A stretch of 64,000 nt of DNA from Eucommia ulmoides (lineage: Eukaryota > Streptophyta > Magnoliopsida > Garryales > Eucommiaceae): positions 15,459,905-15,523,904 of the forward strand of contig CM028335.1 of the NCBI GenBank assembly GCA_016647705.1, read 5' to 3'. Of this stretch, positions 2,148-19,650 are shown in pieces. The notes beneath the pieces were generated by a model that searched no databases, was not told where the DNA came from, and saw only the letters and a program-made list of their open reading frames with translations. A program made the translations under genes and the position numbers. How positions within the stretch are numbered: position 1 is the stretch's first letter; each line of letters starts with the position of its first letter.

Positions 2148-4447
2148 CAGAACTTCAGGATAAACAATGTTCGTTGTTGACAGAGATCCCTGATTAGGCA
2201 GTAGGACACTTAATCGATTAGAGGACGTACATCTCGATAGAGCAACGTAAAGTTAACCATGACTAAACATCGGCGTGGTTAAGTCAACTTCAACATATTT
2301 TACGGACTGTCCTTAGGATTTATTGATGCTCATAGCATACGACAAACAAATTGGGAATTGCTATCTTGTCATTTTGAATGGAAATTCAGTAGTTGAAGGT
2401 GTCAAAGAAATTCTTGGAATGAACGCAGTATTTTCAACTTTTTTCCAGTTAAATTTTTTGCCTCTATTACACATGAGAAACACATCTTACAACCATCAAT
2501 CGTATGACATTGCAAAGCCCCTCACTTAGTGCGATGTTTCGCAACAACATAATTGAACAACCAACTTTAAGATCTAGCTTAAAAGGAGGCAATTCAAGAG
2601 GGTCTAATGAATTCAAATACTCATTAGGATAACGATTTGTAATTTGAGGATCAGCTCCATATTCTTCGGACATTTTATCTGCTGCCAAGTACGTAATGGT
2701 ATTGCCAGGAAACATTTCTAATGCATTAGAATTTAATACGCTGACATCATCATTTCGTGAAGAAATAATGGTTCGCTCGGTAAGAAACATAGGAGTGACA
2801 ATACTTGTTGTATTAATTCCTGGATAAACAAATGACATTAATTCATCCATATTACAATAACAATATATGTTTGATGGCAACTGTATAATTTCATGTGAAT
2901 TTTTTCAATCTAAAATTTTGAAACATAAACATCCAATTTAGTTACGTTGAAAAAGTAATTAAGTATTCACAAATCGTAAAACTCAATAACGACAACTGTA
3001 GTTTACCTGTAGCAGAAATTCTTAGAATTCTGTATTTCGATTATTTGTGCTACTTATGCGTATGTTTAATTCTAGTGTCAAGACAATAATATGCCTCTAG
3101 AGGTTGGAACATTTTGGCGTCGAAGCAAGAATTTGTTGGAAGACTCCTTTTGGTATAACAAGTAGGATTTGCCTGAATTCTCCTCCCAAGTACCAAAGTT
3201 ATACCCCCGAATAGCTTGTTGTTATCTCGATTATCTTGTAACATTCGATCGACAGTTTCAACGCAGTATCTATGTTGTATTGGAACTTTATCCCAAACAA
3301 TAAGCTTGGTTTCTCTGAACAACTCGGAATGCAACGACTGATTACTGAAGCCACATACTGAATTATCCAGTATGTCCAATGGGTTACGGAATGTAAAATG
3401 TGTTGTTCGACCTTCTTCTAGCAATAGTGATGATATATCAGACGATGCAACTATAATAACAATATGACCAAGAGAACGACATTTTGTTGCAATTGTATTA
3501 TAGATAAATATTTTTCAGTACCAGCACCATTATTAAGGTGTTCGATAGTAGTCTTAATATTCAATCGTTGTACCCTATGTTGCAATTGTGTGTGTTCTCA
3601 TATTAGCCTATTTCCAACAACTGTATTCCCGTCCATCACAAGTTGTGGCATTAGGGGAAAATCGATTAAACTTTTGTCACATTCTTGCAATAGTTGATTC
3701 AAAAGATACAAACTATAATTTTTAATCTAGTCTTTAGTTGGGTAAGAAATTATGTATAATATACATTGTTTATGTGGTATATCATCACATAAATATAATG
3801 AAAATTGATCCCAAAGTTCATGTGGATTTATCGGTGAACAATATGTTAGAAGTACACTAAACAATCTCCTTAACTGATGACCAGTTCTAATGATAGACGC
3901 TTCTTGAAGACACTGTATCCACACACCATCATCTTCTAAGGGTCCCATTGCCACACATGTAGCCTTAAATGTCATATGTTCGAAGTTATTCACGATACAT
4001 AGGCACTTAAATAACTTTGGTCCTTTGGTAACTGTTAACAGTAGACGTAGATAAAATCATTCACCCGAATTAGGAGGCACAAAGTACATTCTACCAATAG
4101 CAAACCCCTTCTATATTGGTTTCCATATTTTTTTCACTTTTTATCCCAATAAATTATTAGGAAAACTCTTGATAAGTGTATGCACGCGCCTCCTCATGTA
4201 CTGCGCAATAGTCAAAATAACCCATCAGAGTTGATACTTGTGATTGCGCCCTAGAAACTATAGCTTCCATACTTTCATTAGGAATAAAAAGAACTTGATT
4301 CATTCCAGACAAATAAATTTTCAATTGTACAACATTTGGACTCTCGTTGTGCAAAGGGAAACTAAAAAGTCTCCAAGCCGCTTCCGATGGCCCTATATAC
4401 CTTACATTATGATATTGCTTGATTTCATCTATTTCTCTCAAAGTCAA
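2148..4447 (-). pseudogene. PIF1-type helicase part of the Helitron, broken
   Basis: Pieces in order: 4157-4447 (DEIKQYHNVRYIGPSEAAWR, the Rep-helicase linker); 3727-3993 (TFKATCVAMGPLEDDGVWIQ); 3050-3424 ([20 protein letters not shown], the Walker B region where D-E is usual and here reads D-K); 2467-2880 ([20 protein letters not shown] and [10 protein letters not shown]); and a tail near 2390-2150 with CLSYAMSINKS, GQSVKYVEVDL and LYVALSR, the last helicase motifs. I did not find a clean Walker A. Stops and shifts separate the pieces, so the enzyme is dead. Confidence 0.85.
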
Positions 4448-13310: not shown

Positions 13311-14115
13311 TAATGAGGGTATTTTAAGGCACCTCTGAGTCAGCACTTGGGATCCAACCATGTGTCTATCATCGTAGTGATAAGGACGCATTGCGGAATC
13401 CACAACACCACACTAGATCATACGCCGACCACGACTCCTCCCTGGAACCTCATTTACATCCAGGGAGGAGCGAGGAGCCTGACAGGAATATGCCACTCTG
13501 AGTTCTACGTCGTGTCCTAAGTGACTAATCTCAGGAGCTCAGCCGTTTACCTCGATCGGCTCTCCCTTCCAGCTCGTTTCCTCTCCAGAATTCCACGGAT
13601 CCCCCATTCTCCTCCACCATCTTACCACTACGGGCCAAGCAGAGGCTCCTGGGCTTTTCTAGATGGGCCCAAAAGCCTAAGCCCAACGATTATCTCATAA
13701 ACGCCCCAGATTATCAACTAAACACAGGGTTTCAACTAATTAACCGTGTTTAGGACTGACTAAACATCTCCAACTCATATATATATCGGGGGCTATGTAA
13801 GTACGAGGTACGTTGGAATACGATTGACATTACGATCGAGTTTATTTGTTTACTTGCTGCATTACTGTACTTTTTCTCTTTGAGCACTGATTACCACACC
13901 AGAGGGGCTTCACCGGGACAAATCCCAGTTTGTGCCTTCTGTAGGTACACCCCCTAAGGAGTAGAACTCTAGACATAGCAAGTTAGTCCTTCCCGGACCC
14001 AGTACAGCTCACCTGAAAAATGTTCAACCGATGACTCCACCTCAACAAGAGGACCCACCCACTTGTCATCCAACTAGGCTATACTCAAGGTGTGTACCAG
14101 TTTTATACACCAACA
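13311..14115 (+). repeat. 3' LTR of the Tat-like non-coding element
   Basis: Counterpart of 9333-10081. It carries about 60 bp of extra sequence near 13970-14040 and a shorter AT run at the TATA region, so the two LTRs have diverged by both point changes and length changes. Confidence 0.75.
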
Positions 14116-14463
14116 CAACAATAATTGGTTGCTTATGAAGATAAATTTCAATTGTTTATTCGACTAATTTCTGCAGTTGTATCTTTTCAATTGCAGATAC
14201 GAAACCCACGTTAGAAACGGTTTCTTGTTCACTTTTTTAGGCTCATAGATTTTTTATTTTTGTTTTTAGCTCATAAGATTAAAAATAATTTTGGGCAGAT
14301 TTACTAAATTTGGAGCATCTGTTCACTAGCGTTTTCATATCGTGCATTCATATAAAAGGCTGGATTATTTGTTTCGATATTATAGGGTAAATTAATTATT
14401 TGTTTTTTCATCCAAGAAAATCATATTTATTTTGAAAATTAAATTTAATTAATTTTATTGTAC
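14113..14463 (+). repeat. Remainder of the second tandem copy
   Basis: Continues the copy begun at 9292-9332 after the LTR element. It is similar to 8801-9290, including a conserved CAGTTGTATCTTTTCAATTG phrase, and ends with ACCATGG as copy one does. Confidence 0.6.
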
Positions 14464-14736
14464 CATGGTGAAACAAACATTGGCAGGACTGCATGGGGGT
14501 CCTTTTATCGCCTCTAGCTATGACTATAATGTTCCTCTTAATGTATATGGTATGAATAAAAATGTAATATTTCTCTTTTAAATTCATATAATTTTCAATT
14601 ATTTAATCTATCTGCATTTTAATAACTATGTATATTGATCAACAAAGTGTTGTTCATTTACTGTTTTCATTGTTAATTTACTGTTTTCATTTTAAGAACT
14701 ATATATACTGATCGATAAGAAGTTGTATTTTAAGAA

Positions 14737-14945
14737 GAGAAAAGTACATTTTAAACCCTCTAGGTATTGACGAATTTCTTAATAATCCCTCTCCGTTTGA
14801 GCGTTTAATTTTAAACCCTCTATATATCAACACGTTTTTATTTGGTCTTTTTATCAAAAAAAAAAAAAAAAAATTGGCTAAGCTAACAGAATTTTGAGGG
14901 CAAAATCGTCATTTTTTCATTTTTTAATATTTTTTTCTTTTTCTT
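14737..14945. repeat. Left terminal inverted repeat of the Pack-MULE
   Basis: Starts GAGAAAAGTACATTTTAAAC. It matches the reverse complement of the right end through TTTTAAACCCTCTA, TTTGAGYGTTT and AACACGTTTTTATTTGGTC. A run of about 18 A residues near 14858 interrupts the match. Confidence 0.85.
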
Positions 14946-14949
14946 TGAC

Positions 14950-16120
14950 CCCCTCTCTCTCTTCCACTCTCTCTCCCAAGTTCCTCTGTATCTAGATTGG
15001 ACACAAATCTCAAAAACTTCTTCCTTGCCACTAATTCCTCCATAACCGCCACCATATTCTCCAAGTTCTTCCCTTTCAAAGCAGACACCAAAGCCTCCTT
15101 GTGCCTGAACTTCTTCAACAACTTATCATGCTCTGCTAATTTCACCTTTTTAGGCCTCATGACCAAGTAATCACCTTTCCTTGGCTTCTCATTTTGGCCA
15201 TGATGAAAATATCAAAAATTCATAGGCCTTAAAACTGGCCTCTGAAGCTCCTCTACAGGGCCAAAACCAACAAAATCACCGAATTCCGACTCGATTTTTT
15301 CTTTCACTTTCCTCTTGCCTATATAGAAAACCCCATTTGAGGTTCTAATCACTCTAGTGGAACAATCAGGCAAGAACCCAACAGACATAAGAGGATTAAG
15401 GTACCTCATTGAATTGGTGATTTTAAACTTGGCATAATCGAAAACTTTCATAAACCCGTCTAATGCTACACTCATAATTCTGTTTTGTTGAGCTTATTCC
15501 CCACTTTCTTTATGAATCTTTCTCACACAAATTGATGATACTGTCGTGTTGTGACTCTCCATTGAATACAATAATCTCCCACCACCAATCATATCCCATA
15601 TTTTCACCAAATGTCCACTTGTCGTCGCAACTAACCCTCCTAAAGGCAATTTGATTGCATCCTCTACCGGCTTCCCATGGTTCATTTCCATTACTGAACT
15701 TCCACTCGAAACCCTAATGTCCCAAACCTTAACCGTATGATCATATGAACCAGTAACAAACATATCGTCACTCGCAGATGAACCATCGTCGCACCGGACA
15801 TAATCTTTGTGCCCGTGAAGATCAAGGATGGTAGTTTGTGAGGTCACATCCCCGTACTTCACGATGGCATCGTCCCCGCCCGAGAATAGGTAGAGCTTGT
15901 CGAGGCGAGGGTAGCGGACAAGGCAAATAGGGCGAGAGTGGCCGCAGAGGTTCTGGAGGACGGATCAAGACTTAACATCGAATAGTGGACTTTTCCAAAG
16001 AGGTCTTTGGCAGCAAGTAAGCAACCATCAGATCGGAAGGAGGCAGAAATGGCGGTATCGGAAAAGGCCGACGTGATGGTGGATTTAGGTAGGTTCTAGT
16101 GTCTCGGCAGAGAAGATAGT
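14950..16120 (-). pseudogene. UTP15: UTP15 fragment: WD40 repeats and start of the C-terminal domain
   Basis: UTP15 is a WD40 subunit of the nucleolar U3 small-subunit processome (t-UTP subcomplex), needed for pre-18S rRNA processing. On the minus strand, SAFSDTAISASFRSDGCLLA (about 16085) leads into the WD40 blades: DLHGHKDYVRCD, TGSYDHTVKVWD (about 15760-15730), GHLVKIWDMIGGGRLLYSME and SVALDGFMKVFDYAKF. The UTP15 C-domain follows (MRPKKVKLAEHDKLLKKFRH, VAVMEELVARKKFLRFVSNL, DTEELG). It ends there, at the inverted end, so roughly the last fifth of the protein is missing. There is a frame change near 16000, a GAA-to-TAA type stop near 15490 and a CGA-to-TGA type stop near 15212. No introns are seen. 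Not functional as UTP15. Confidence 0.92.
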
Positions 16121-16517
16121 TGTTGGTCCAGTAGAATAGCCAAGAAGGTGGGTGAATTGGGTAATTAAAAAATATTATCAGAATATACTTGAATAAATCA
16201 AATAATTAATTTTATACCTAAATTAATTATTATTTTTATACCATAGCGGAATTAAAATAAATTTAAGTGCACACCCAAACAACAAAAATAAACAAATTAA
16301 GAAAGCAGCACACCAGAGATTTATATTGGTTCACTAAGCTACTCTTGGCTAATCCAGTCTCCCAAGCTCTACGGAGGTCGCACCCACTAAAACCAAGATC
16401 CCTTTAAAGGTAGAAACCAAACTCGCACAATGATTCTTTTCAAAGGCTCAAAATCAACCTCTATTTTTTACAGGCTCATGAATAACCTTTACAACTTCCT
16501 TTTCCCAGACTCAGGAA

Positions 16518-16748
16518 GGGTTAATTATATTTTACTCCCCTGTGGTTTGGCCAATTTCCACTTTACCCCCTATGGTTTGGAAATCGCCACTTACCCCCCT
16601 GTAGTCAGATTTTCAAACCACTTACCCCCCTGATAAAGGGGTAAGTGCGCTAAATATTTGACCACAGGAGGGGTAAGTGACGATTTTCAAACCACATGGG
16701 GGTAAGTGCAAATTGGTCAAACCACAGGGGGTAAAGTATAATTAACCC
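16518..16748. mobile_element. 231 bp MITE with MULE-type target duplication
   Basis: Starts GGGTTAATTATATTTTACTC, and its other end is the reverse complement (AAGTATAATTAACCC). The arms include GGTTTGGCCAATTTCCACTT and its inverse, so the whole element folds back. An exact 10 bp duplication GACTCAGGAA lies at 16508-16517 and 16749-16758. A 9-11 bp duplication points to a Mutator-derived MITE. No coding capacity. Confidence 0.9.
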
Positions 16749-17869
16749 GACTCAGGAATAACCTCTACTTTTTCAAGGCTCAAGAATAACCTATCTTTTT
16801 ACAGGCTAAAGATTTACCTAATTATTTGTATCACTACGGCTCAAGAATCAAAACCTCTCAAAATACTCCAAGTATCATTTTCACAGGTAAGGATGAAACA
16901 TTTACAATTCACTCACACTATTTCTATTCAGGAAGAATTAATACATCAATCTCTTTACAGGAAGAGACTGAAACCCGGCTACCCTTGATTAAATATCCCC
17001 AACAGTATTCAATTCATCACAACTCACTAATACACAAATTGATAAGAAGTAAATCTCACTCAGGAGCTTCTACCACCCTAGATAAATAATAACTCAATTA
17101 ATATCCCAACTAGTAATAGAAAAACATGAGATACAAAAATCTGATTTTAACAAAAATATGGGTAGCAAATTGGAGCACGTAATCAGATGTAAGAAATTGT
17201 TTATAAAAATATTTTCTTCAAAAATCAGAAACAAATTTCTAAGATCAATTTTCAAATATAGAATAATAAATAAAACGTTAAGCAATATGGAAAAATCTCA
17301 CCCGGAATCCACAGAAATAATGATTAGAACAATATAGCTTTAAATCCGATAGCAATAAAGATAAACAACAATTGATCTTTAAGATCGTCTCTCAGAAAAG
17401 CTCACAATATTTCAGAAAAATAACTCTTATAAAAACTCACAAATAATATGATATGATTTCTCTCTTGTTTTATGCTTAATTGCTAATGAAATTCGCAGGT
17501 CTATTTAAAGGCATATGTAATCAGCCTTCTAACGGTTAGTTTACAAGTGTCATGATAATAAAAAAGCTCTTATAGACCCCTTATAACATAAGGACTTCAT
17601 TTAGGTTCAATTTCACTTAAAAACAACTTTCAAATCTTTCAATTAAATCTCCAAAATATTTCTCAATCAAAATAAATAAGTGTAGAATCCATTTTAATTA
17701 CCAAATTGAGAAACCTTAATATTTAATTAACCATATTGAAAGGATTTAATTAGTATATGAACCATATCTTAAATATTAAGAATATCCCTTAAATCTCTCT
17801 CAAATCCTAACAAAAAATTGTTACTTTTAGATTTAAAATCGGATCAAACAATATCCTAAACCAGCACAT

Positions 17870-18105
17870 TCGGTCAACTGCCTAGTCGACTGCCCAAAGC
17901 CATACCATCGCCGCAGTGAGAATAAGTCGACCGCTCGATCGACTCACAAATTCAGAGAGTTTGTCATGCTTTTACCGGTCGACCACTTGGTCGACTCGCA
18001 GATTCAGAGAGTTTAGATGTTTTCACAGGTCGACCAGTCGATCGACTCTTCAATTCTGGATGTTTCATCTTCCTTCTCTGATCGACTCCTCAATCGACTG
18101 CCTCC
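17870..18105 (+). repeat. ~52 bp tandem repeat with GTCGAC/GATCGAC core
   Basis: Units start at about 17926, 17978 and 18029 with GTCGACC, then a GATCGACTC or GGTCGACTC word and 'AATTCAGAGAGTTT', with weaker partial units on each side. Cores are dyad-symmetric (GTCGAC, CGATCG). It lies near the right end of the LTR-like insertion. Confidence 0.7.
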
Positions 18106-18564
18106 TTCTGAATCACTTCTCTGATCTCGTTTTTAACCTACTTTCTTTTACGATTTCGCCCATTTATCCATTTTTATATTTAAATAAGCTCCACTAATAT
18201 TCTTATATTCCATTTTAGTCATTCAAAAATATTTATTTTTAATTCACATAGGAGTAAATAAATATACTTAACAAAAACACACATAAAAGATAAAATTCAT
18301 TTTGTGTCATGTGTGTGTTCCTAAATGGGATATTAAGAGTTAATATTTACCTGGGTTGTTTTCCTTAATTTCTTCAAACTCTGAATGCTTCTTCATCATC
18401 TTGATATCTTCATTAAGCATCCATTCCATTTGACATCTTCATTTAGCATCCATTCAATTTGATATCTTCATTACAGGAACTTTAAATCACTGAAACACTT
18501 GATCAAATATTAGTTCTACCAAAACATAAATACTTAATTGTTCATAAAAATCTTGGGATCAATA

Positions 18565-18773
18565 ATAGTAATGGTTGTGGAATGAGGGGCGGAAAAGTCG
18601 TAAAACGATGTGGGGGAAAAAGAAAGAGAAGTAATTGCAGAAAGTAGGGTTTGGGTTGGGTTTTCTTTCGGCGCTTTGAATGACTTCCAGTACTTAGATT
18701 CTATGGTTGGTGTAGACTTGTTTGAGGTGGATTTGAGCTTCGGCTTCACCGGAAAGGCCTCAGTGGTTCCCAT
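18565..18773 (-). pseudogene. UTP15: UTP15 N-terminal fragment
   Basis: The frame starts at the ATG 18773-18771 (MGTTEAFPVKPKLKSTSNKS) and runs through ESKYWKSFKAPKENPTQTLL and SLSFSPTSFYDFSAP, the usual UTP15 head before the first WD40 blade. It is cut at ATAGT (18565-18569). Joining it to ATAGT at 16116-16120 on the minus strand restores TTITIFSAETLEP in frame, proving that the two UTP15 pieces were once continuous. A GA-rich leader (about 18780-18840) lies upstream and may be captured 5'-UTR. Confidence 0.9.
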
Positions 18774-18844
18774 CGGTAGGGAAAGAGAGAGAGGGAGGAA
18801 GAGAGAGAGATGAGCGAAAAAGAGAGAGAGAGAGAGAGAAATGA

Positions 18845-19058
18845 AGAAAAAGAAAAAAGAAAATTAAAAAATTATTAAAAAATTAAAATATGTAAAATGA
18901 CTATTTTAGCTCTCCATTCTATTATTTTTTATGGATATTTTGACAGAATGACCAAATAAAAACGTGTTAATATATATAGGGTTTAAAATGAAACACTCAA
19001 ATGGAGAAGGACCATTTAAAAATTCGTTAATAACTAGAGGGTTTAAAATATATTTTTT
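18845..19058. repeat. Right terminal inverted repeat of the Pack-MULE
   Basis: Reverse complement of the left end: GACCAAATAAAAACGTGTTA (about 18950), then 'GGGTTTAAAAT' twice (near 18978 and 19039), ending at 19058 just before TATTTTAAGAA. It diverges from the left arm mainly by point changes. Confidence 0.85.
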
Positions 19059-19069
19059 TATTTTAAGAA

Positions 19070-19650
19070 CTATGTACATATGATTAAATTCCTCAATCTC
19101 TGTTTTCGTTCCCAAAATTTTGATTTAAAATCTAGGAGGAAATTGCAAAACATATAATTTTCTCTTTCTTTTTATTTCCATTTTTTTTCTATTCTAAGTT
19201 TCTTCAAAACAAAAACACAAAGGTGGTGCTTGGTTGGTGCTGATTTGTACCGTTCTGTACTGCATTCATTGGTAATGTGCTTATTTGTAATATTAATAGA
19301 AAATGTACATTGTTTGTTTTGGTTTAACCAAATTTAGTTGATGAAATTAAGTCATTATTCGGCATTATTTGATCATGAATTACTACATCAAATTAAGTAA
19401 TTATTTGATTGTTTGTGTTGTCTCTTTTTCGTAATTGTAATATACATTGTTGACGGGTGCAGGTATAAATGTTAATTATTATTGACATTTAATAACACAG
19501 GTGTAGAATGATCTATAATTAGAGGTTATTATAGTAATTTTTTAGGTGTATTTGTTTTATGCATGTGCCTTTAAGGCAGATTAAGGTGATTTTTTTAATT
19601 TTTTTCTTTGAATTGCAAACAGTTGACGATTTGCAACCAAGTATGGATAT
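19070..19650. other. AT-rich spacer, no gene seen
   Basis: No coding frame was found. A short hairpin TGCC/GGCA (about 19565-19577) after TTAGG (about 19543) faintly resembles a Helitron 3' end on the minus strand, but the stem is only four base pairs. Confidence 0.3.

Follow-up and report, generated by a model that had tools for sequence, protein, structure and literature searches.

We analysed a 64,000-nucleotide stretch of Eucommia ulmoides DNA (contig CM028335.1, positions 15,459,905 to 15,523,904 of the forward strand; hereafter the window), in which an element bounded by terminal inverted repeats (TIRs) spans positions 14737-19060 and contains a copy of the gene UTP15 on its minus strand. 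A preliminary description of the window had read this element as a Pack-MULE, a Mutator-like element (MULE) with a captured gene, and the core of that reading is supported by the family to which its ends belong, by an intact parent gene and by three further copies bounded by TIRs or TIR remnants. The features of the element are:

14728..14736, plus strand: left copy of the 9-bp target duplication TTTTAAGAA; the exact repeat reaches 14726
14737..14974, plus strand: left TIR (~238 bp), with two ~60-bp internal repeats and a CT-rich inner part
14975..16120, minus strand: captured UTP15 copy, 3' portion, to nucleotide 1365 of the parent coding sequence (CDS); DNA match to the parent, Pfam UTP15_C, PDB homolog
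18570..18760, minus strand: captured UTP15 copy, 5' portion, from parent CDS nucleotide 32 (codon 11); DNA match to the parent
18761..19060, minus strand: right TIR (~300 bp), including a GA/CT-rich "leader" and a TIR-derived ATG (18771-18773)
19061..19069, plus strand: right copy of the target duplication TTTTAAGAA; duplications in the family are 9 bp

Aligned to each other without gaps, the inverted ends share 81% identity over 145 nt, and a gapped alignment covers 225 columns at 76%, scoring 159 bits against a maximum of 32.8 among 200 dinucleotide shuffles, which agrees with the ~200 bp first estimated for them. The 11-bp target duplication proposed at the same time is indeed present as an exact repeat on both sides (TATTTTAAGAA, 14726-14736 and 19059-19069), but the duplication itself is best read as the 9-bp TTTTAAGAA, because 14737 pairs with 19060 in the ungapped alignment and duplications in the family were tested as 9 bp; the "TA" preceding both copies is then best read as a chance match. 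The left flank holds repeats containing ATTTTAA(G/T)AACTAT, in one of which the duplication string recurs. Joining the flanks over one duplication copy gives an unbroken repeat unit, 94% identical over 17 bp to a neighbouring unit, and this rebuilt unit supports a real insertion. Within each TIR (14748-14827; 18945-19049) a ~60-bp spaced repeat (ATTTTAAACCCTCTA...) also occurs twice, making the TIR partly tandem; tandem TIRs have been described in MULEs, at a larger scale, in the accessible text of PMC3310237.

The window copy corresponds to parent CDS 32-1365 of 1599 nt (83%), much as the preliminary estimate of roughly four fifths had it. Pfam UTP15_C is matched at 14924-15166 (E 1.3e-13, profile positions 11-75 of 147), and the best piece (15497-15964) matches a solved UTP15 structure (chain 7ruo_A, E 7.1e-39) in a structure-chain search that listed 469 sequences with this piece, many being other WD40 proteins. 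UTP15 structures are matched weakly by the N-terminal (0.048), second (0.022) and third (0.022) pieces, and the C-terminal piece is weakly better matched in that search to ribosomal protein S4 (0.16) than to UTP15 (0.51); we take it as UTP15 because of the Pfam hit and the parent gene. The DNA match ends at 14975, and no UTP15_C is detected by Pfam in the three minus-strand frames of the left flank (14000-14736), so truncation at the left inverted end, as first described, stands and UTP15 does not run on beyond the ends. The absence of a transposase was also borne out among the 10 open-reading frames (ORFs) of at least 60 aa overlapping 14400-19400, searched against Pfam whole or by their UTP15 part: two match families (WD40-type propellers and UTP15_C), neither a transposase, and the other ORFs in and around the element match none (6 of 6). 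The copy has a GC content of 0.44, the TIRs 0.27-0.31 and the flanks 0.27-0.33; the copy's higher value fits the report that Pack-MULEs capture GC-rich sequence (PMC8277862, accessible text), though the parent CDS stands at 0.469 anyway.

The start of the copy had been taken for UTP15's own ATG behind a leader-like GA-rich stretch, and on both points the description has to be revised. UTP15 homology begins only at 18760, 13 bp past the A of the window ATG (18773), the proteins start differently (MGTTEAFPV in the window, MAEDRSGTISKAFPV in the parent), and the other three copies read GCC at the ATG position; from the later homology start and the GCC we conclude that the window ATG arose within the TIR. 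The GA-rich stretch is ruled out as UTP15 sequence: L002-L008, seven further members of the family, have it as their inner TIR, and the 5' sequence of the parent is different.

To place these ends we searched a genome of 946.67 Mb, in which the window lies on contig C11 (there are 15 contigs, C1-C15, each about 43-80 Mb). The left TIR gave at least 43 DNA matches (2295 candidates, 40 scored), from which 39 TIR places were examined, these being all the listed places apart from the row of the window itself and three rows in which the match is the partner end of a place already listed. A partner end lay within the fetched stretch at 33 of the 39, an exact 9-bp duplication was found at 20 and one with at most one mismatch at 27, so these ends do occur elsewhere with duplications of the expected length. 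When one end was shifted by 30-120 bp, 33 of 3514 pairs showed an exact repeat and 154 of 3514 a repeat with at most one mismatch, these being single end pairs whereas a real place could offer more than one; at random positions an exact 9-bp repeat occurred in 2 of 4000. The ends lie 0.5-0.95 kb apart in 25 of the 27 duplication-bearing places, the larger two being L017 and the UTP15 copy on C3 (L022). We considered L017 (3309 bp between ends) as a second cargo type and rejected it: an insertion splits its left TIR and it looks like an ordinary miniature inverted-repeat transposable element (MITE) of the family. The family's inner TIR covers the CT-rich stretch, to CCGACCGGAACCACC in the best-matching members. 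This TIR/MITE family is common in the genome.

The parental gene, whose search had been recommended, was found at C14:59714402-59716003: it is intact, intronless, encodes 533 aa and is the sole intact UTP15 gene found. A protein search (E up to 1e-10) returned 15 matches, namely this gene, ten pieces of four copies and four other WD40-like matches at 28-37% identity, whilst a DNA search returned 7 matches from 7 candidates, all scored and the window included. These TIRs are not matched in the 8.5 kb fetched around the parent. The three copies beyond the window are:

C11:35666734-35668513: UTP15 copy; 9-bp duplication TTTATTTAA
C3:33849442-33851624: UTP15 copy, long form; 9-bp duplication TATATTTTT
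C5, about 44.0086-44.012 Mb: UTP15 copy (two of the seven DNA rows), split by an insertion; left end lost in a TA repeat, ends worn

The four captured copies lie on three contigs, none of them the parent's C14. The 5' gene/TIR junction is common to all four, at parent CDS 29-32 after ...GGAACCACC or a near TIR variant. At their 3' ends three copies (window, C11:35.67 and C5) break at the same base, CDS 1365, directly into the CT-rich TIR, and the C3 copy covers CDS 30-1525 (94%) followed by the family's inner sequence. The single 5' breakpoint in all four copies indicates one capture, and the three copies with readable ends each carry a different exact 9-bp duplication, which shows that the element transposed once the gene was on board. 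Most simply, UTP15 was captured once by a family MITE (the long form), an internal 3' deletion followed, and the short form then spread; a FastTree phylogeny agrees weakly with this (parent with C3, 0.875; window with C5, 0.690). As a separate observation, the right end of the insertion in the C5 copy (L038 3538-5165), GGTAATTTACACCTATCA, looks similar, judged by eye, to the ends of repeats around 30200, 33720 and 60400 in the window.

All four copies have decayed. Relative to the parent, the window copy has frameshifts at CDS 248 (+4) and 355 (-1) and stops at codons 125 (CGA to TGA), 282 (GAA to TAA) and 376 (CGA to TGA), and cannot make UTP15 protein as it stands. The L037 copy has no in-frame stop and carries three frameshifting indels and a 96-bp deletion, the L040 copy has six stops and a -1 frameshift, and the C5 copy (L038) four stops and a -1 frameshift. 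Counted over 1224 columns with all five sequences, 48 more complex columns being left out, private changes number 53 in the window copy, 29, 52 and 50 in the other three and 14 in the parent. Amino-acid changes were compared with placement of changes in the same base and CpG class (lower-tail P): observed and expected numbers are 41 and 37.9 in the window copy (P 0.87), 15 and 19.5 in L037 (P 0.056), 34 and 36.1 in L040 (P 0.32) and 33 and 35.3 in L038 (P 0.27), whereas the parent has too few, 4 observed and 9.6 expected (P 0.0015). The copies have evolved neutrally and the parent has not. Branch lengths, uncalibrated and giving no date, are 0.04-0.07 for the copies and 0.015 for the parent.

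The window copy is further interrupted by nested insertions absent from the preliminary account, without which the element is 1875 bp long:

16116..16120, plus strand: left copy of the 5-bp duplication ATAGT of the nested insertion
16121..18564, no strand assigned: later nested insertion, solo-long-terminal-repeat (LTR)-like (TGTTGG...CAATA), 2444 bp including a MITE; the UTP15 reading continues across it
16518..16748, no strand assigned: 231-bp MITE within the nested insertion, inverted ends GGGTTAATTATA; 10-bp repeat GACTCAGGAA at 16508-16517 and 16749-16758
18565..18569, plus strand: right copy of ATAGT

The UTP15 protein reading resumes in frame on either side (HSTTI; TIFSAETLEP). The insert has the 5-bp target duplication of a solo LTR, its termini (start TGTTGGTCC, end GGATCAATA) are TG...TA and not TG...CA, and we therefore call it solo-LTR-like only. 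The order of insertion is the element into the repeat flank, the LTR-like element into the UTP15 copy, and the MITE into the LTR-like element.

Capture, later transposition and decay are thus all recorded here, and we regard the element, with high confidence, as a decayed non-autonomous Mutator-like transposon with captured UTP15, a member of a multi-copy Pack-MULE lineage. MULEs are defined by 9-11 bp duplications and TIRs of 100-500 bp (PMC3310237, accessible text), and its TIRs of ~238 bp (left) and ~300 bp (right) fall within this range, as does TTTTAAGAA together with the duplications at 20 of 39 other places. What is expected of a Pack-MULE in particular is likewise present: a host-gene fragment whose parent lies elsewhere without TIRs (C14, 8.5 kb fetched), no transposase of its own (10 ORFs of at least 60 aa, 14400-19400) and mobility after capture (three distinct exact 9-bp duplications with a common capture junction). 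Mechanistically, UTP15 may have been copied into a family MITE through a template switch as a gap was repaired or a fork stalled; this proposal comes from the junctions, where microhomology, judged by eye, is no more than 2-3 bp (CC; GG or AGG), and such gene copying has been proposed for Pack-TIRs (PMC8277862, accessible text). A MuDR-type transposase supplied in trans would then have moved the element by cut and paste. Three of the four copies have in common a later 3' truncation, and the window copy was hit by an LTR-type element and then by a MITE inside that element.

Several observations weigh against this reading. The flank is AT-rich and repetitive, so that the window duplication taken alone is weak evidence, and the right terminal bases of the window element are degenerate (TAAAAAAATA, where the family mostly has GGGAAAA or GGAAAAA). 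Six of the 39 TIR places lack a partner end in the fetched stretch, and six paired places lack a 9-bp repeat even allowing one mismatch. Neutrality of L037 is borderline only (P 0.056), and the ratio of non-synonymous to synonymous rates (Ka/Ks) is below 1 in 10 of 10 pairs (0.37-0.69), including the six copy-copy pairs (0.50-0.69), as calculated with gapped or stop codons dropped and with transition and CpG bias ignored. We think that these ratios are a product of that bias and rely on the placement test instead; some constraint may nevertheless have acted during spread, above all in L037. Finally, the Mutator label comes from the 9-bp duplication and TIR length alone, with no transposase tied to these TIRs, and the element might belong to another TIR superfamily. 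We consider this decidedly unlikely given 9-bp duplications at 20 of 39 places and TIRs of 240-300 bp; the accessible text of PMC8903248 gives duplications of 8 nt for hAT, 5 nt for CACTA in that study, TA for Mariner and mostly TTA/TAA for PIF.

Two further explanations were considered. One is a processed (retro) UTP15 pseudogene that ended up within or between MULE MITEs at a later time; it would account for the intronless copy, but the parent is intronless too, which makes this point indecisive and also leaves the absence of introns unusable as a sign of DNA-level capture. Visual inspection shows no poly-A tract after the end of UTP15, the junctions lie within the CDS (the 5' one the same in 4 of 4 copies, the short 3' one in 3 of 4) between TIRs or remnants, and each of the two other both-ended copies is flanked, beyond its TIRs, by a 9-bp duplication of its own; among the 7 DNA matches no TIR-less, poly-A-tailed retrocopy was seen (the tail of the C11:10511654 match was not examined), and we hold a retro origin to be very improbable. 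The abundance of the family (at least 43 matches, 2295 candidates) lends some plausibility to two independent MITE insertions happening to flank a segmental duplication of UTP15, yet an identical 5' gene/TIR junction is present at four places, and all three complete units carry a target duplication outside both TIRs. Moreover, the UTP15 matches of L037 and L040 end inside TIRs and the left flank in the window lacks UTP15_C, leaving this explanation scarcely credible.

Pack-MULEs are reportedly known from rice and maize since Jiang 2004 and later work. More than 3000 have been annotated in rice (PMC8903248), and the rice and maize elements are alike in being non-autonomous, with long TIRs, 9-11 bp duplications and a gene fragment whose parent lies elsewhere, about a third of them being multi-copy with distinct duplications (PMC8277862, PMC3310237; accessible text in each case). 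Unlike these, a nearly whole (94%) intronless CDS was captured here and the lineage was then 3'-truncated. Maize Mu13 is a Mutator element with parts of a WD40-protein gene as well (PMC3276141, accessible text), but that gene is a different one, represented by 73 and 42 codons, and Mu13 is active, whereas the window element carries ~445 codons of UTP15 and is decayed. Animal Pack-TIRs share capture between TIRs and short microhomology at many breakpoints, but 87% are hAT or Tc/mariner elements and for 57% the parent is no more than 15 kb away (PMC8277862, accessible text), and here no copy is on the parent's contig. In the literature we found no published link of a Pack-MULE with UTP15, weak evidence since most subscription papers fall outside the search, in keeping with the preliminary remark that this is not a standard example; UTP15 is a new example of Pack-MULE gene capture, which is itself already known.

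The general picture of Pack-MULEs is unchanged, and the value of the UTP15 lineage lies in an unusually complete record of capture within a single genome: an intact parent, one junction, a long ancestral-like form and a truncated form that spread, with distinct duplications, neutral decay and nested insertions from which the succession of events can be read. The lineage further illustrates how an ATG and a leader-like stretch in front of a captured gene can come from a TIR, something that can mislead gene annotation. Exact 24-mers shared with the parent CDS occur at 149-306 positions in each of the four copies. TIR-driven transcription of the window copy, if any, could yield RNA matching the parent; a small-RNA role is possible. 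A stronger version, in which the lineage acts or acted in trans, TIR-read copies feeding small RNAs that tune UTP15 and hence ribosome assembly, with the long form (94% of the CDS) spreading while still nearly the whole gene, is unlikely.

The seventh DNA row is a short 84% UTP15 match at C11:10511654, within a stretch (L039, C11:10508000-10515500) whose positions 2910-3988 hold diverged fragments of the UTP15 3' part, 69-76% identical to the parent. This stretch has no match to the TIRs of the window family. Four inverted repeats of 55-62 nt lie between the two UTP15 fragments, and there are two further 31-nt pairs at 71%, of which an AT-rich one (2497-2527/5313-5343) surrounds the fragments and is too weak for ends. 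L039 was left uncounted as a fifth copy; it is possibly an older, separate UTP15 capture. About 1.3 kb from the fragments lies an ORF with a weak MuDR-type transposase match (DBD_Tnp_Mut) below the Pfam cut-off.

Elsewhere in the window, minus-strand ORFs with PIF1 helicase domains (4e-29, 1.8e-13) at 2470-3514 are probably a Helitron remnant, and 27962-64000, with direct repeats often spaced 3.5-3.7 kb and pieces of gag, reverse transcriptase and integrase, is probably a stack of LTR retrotransposons.

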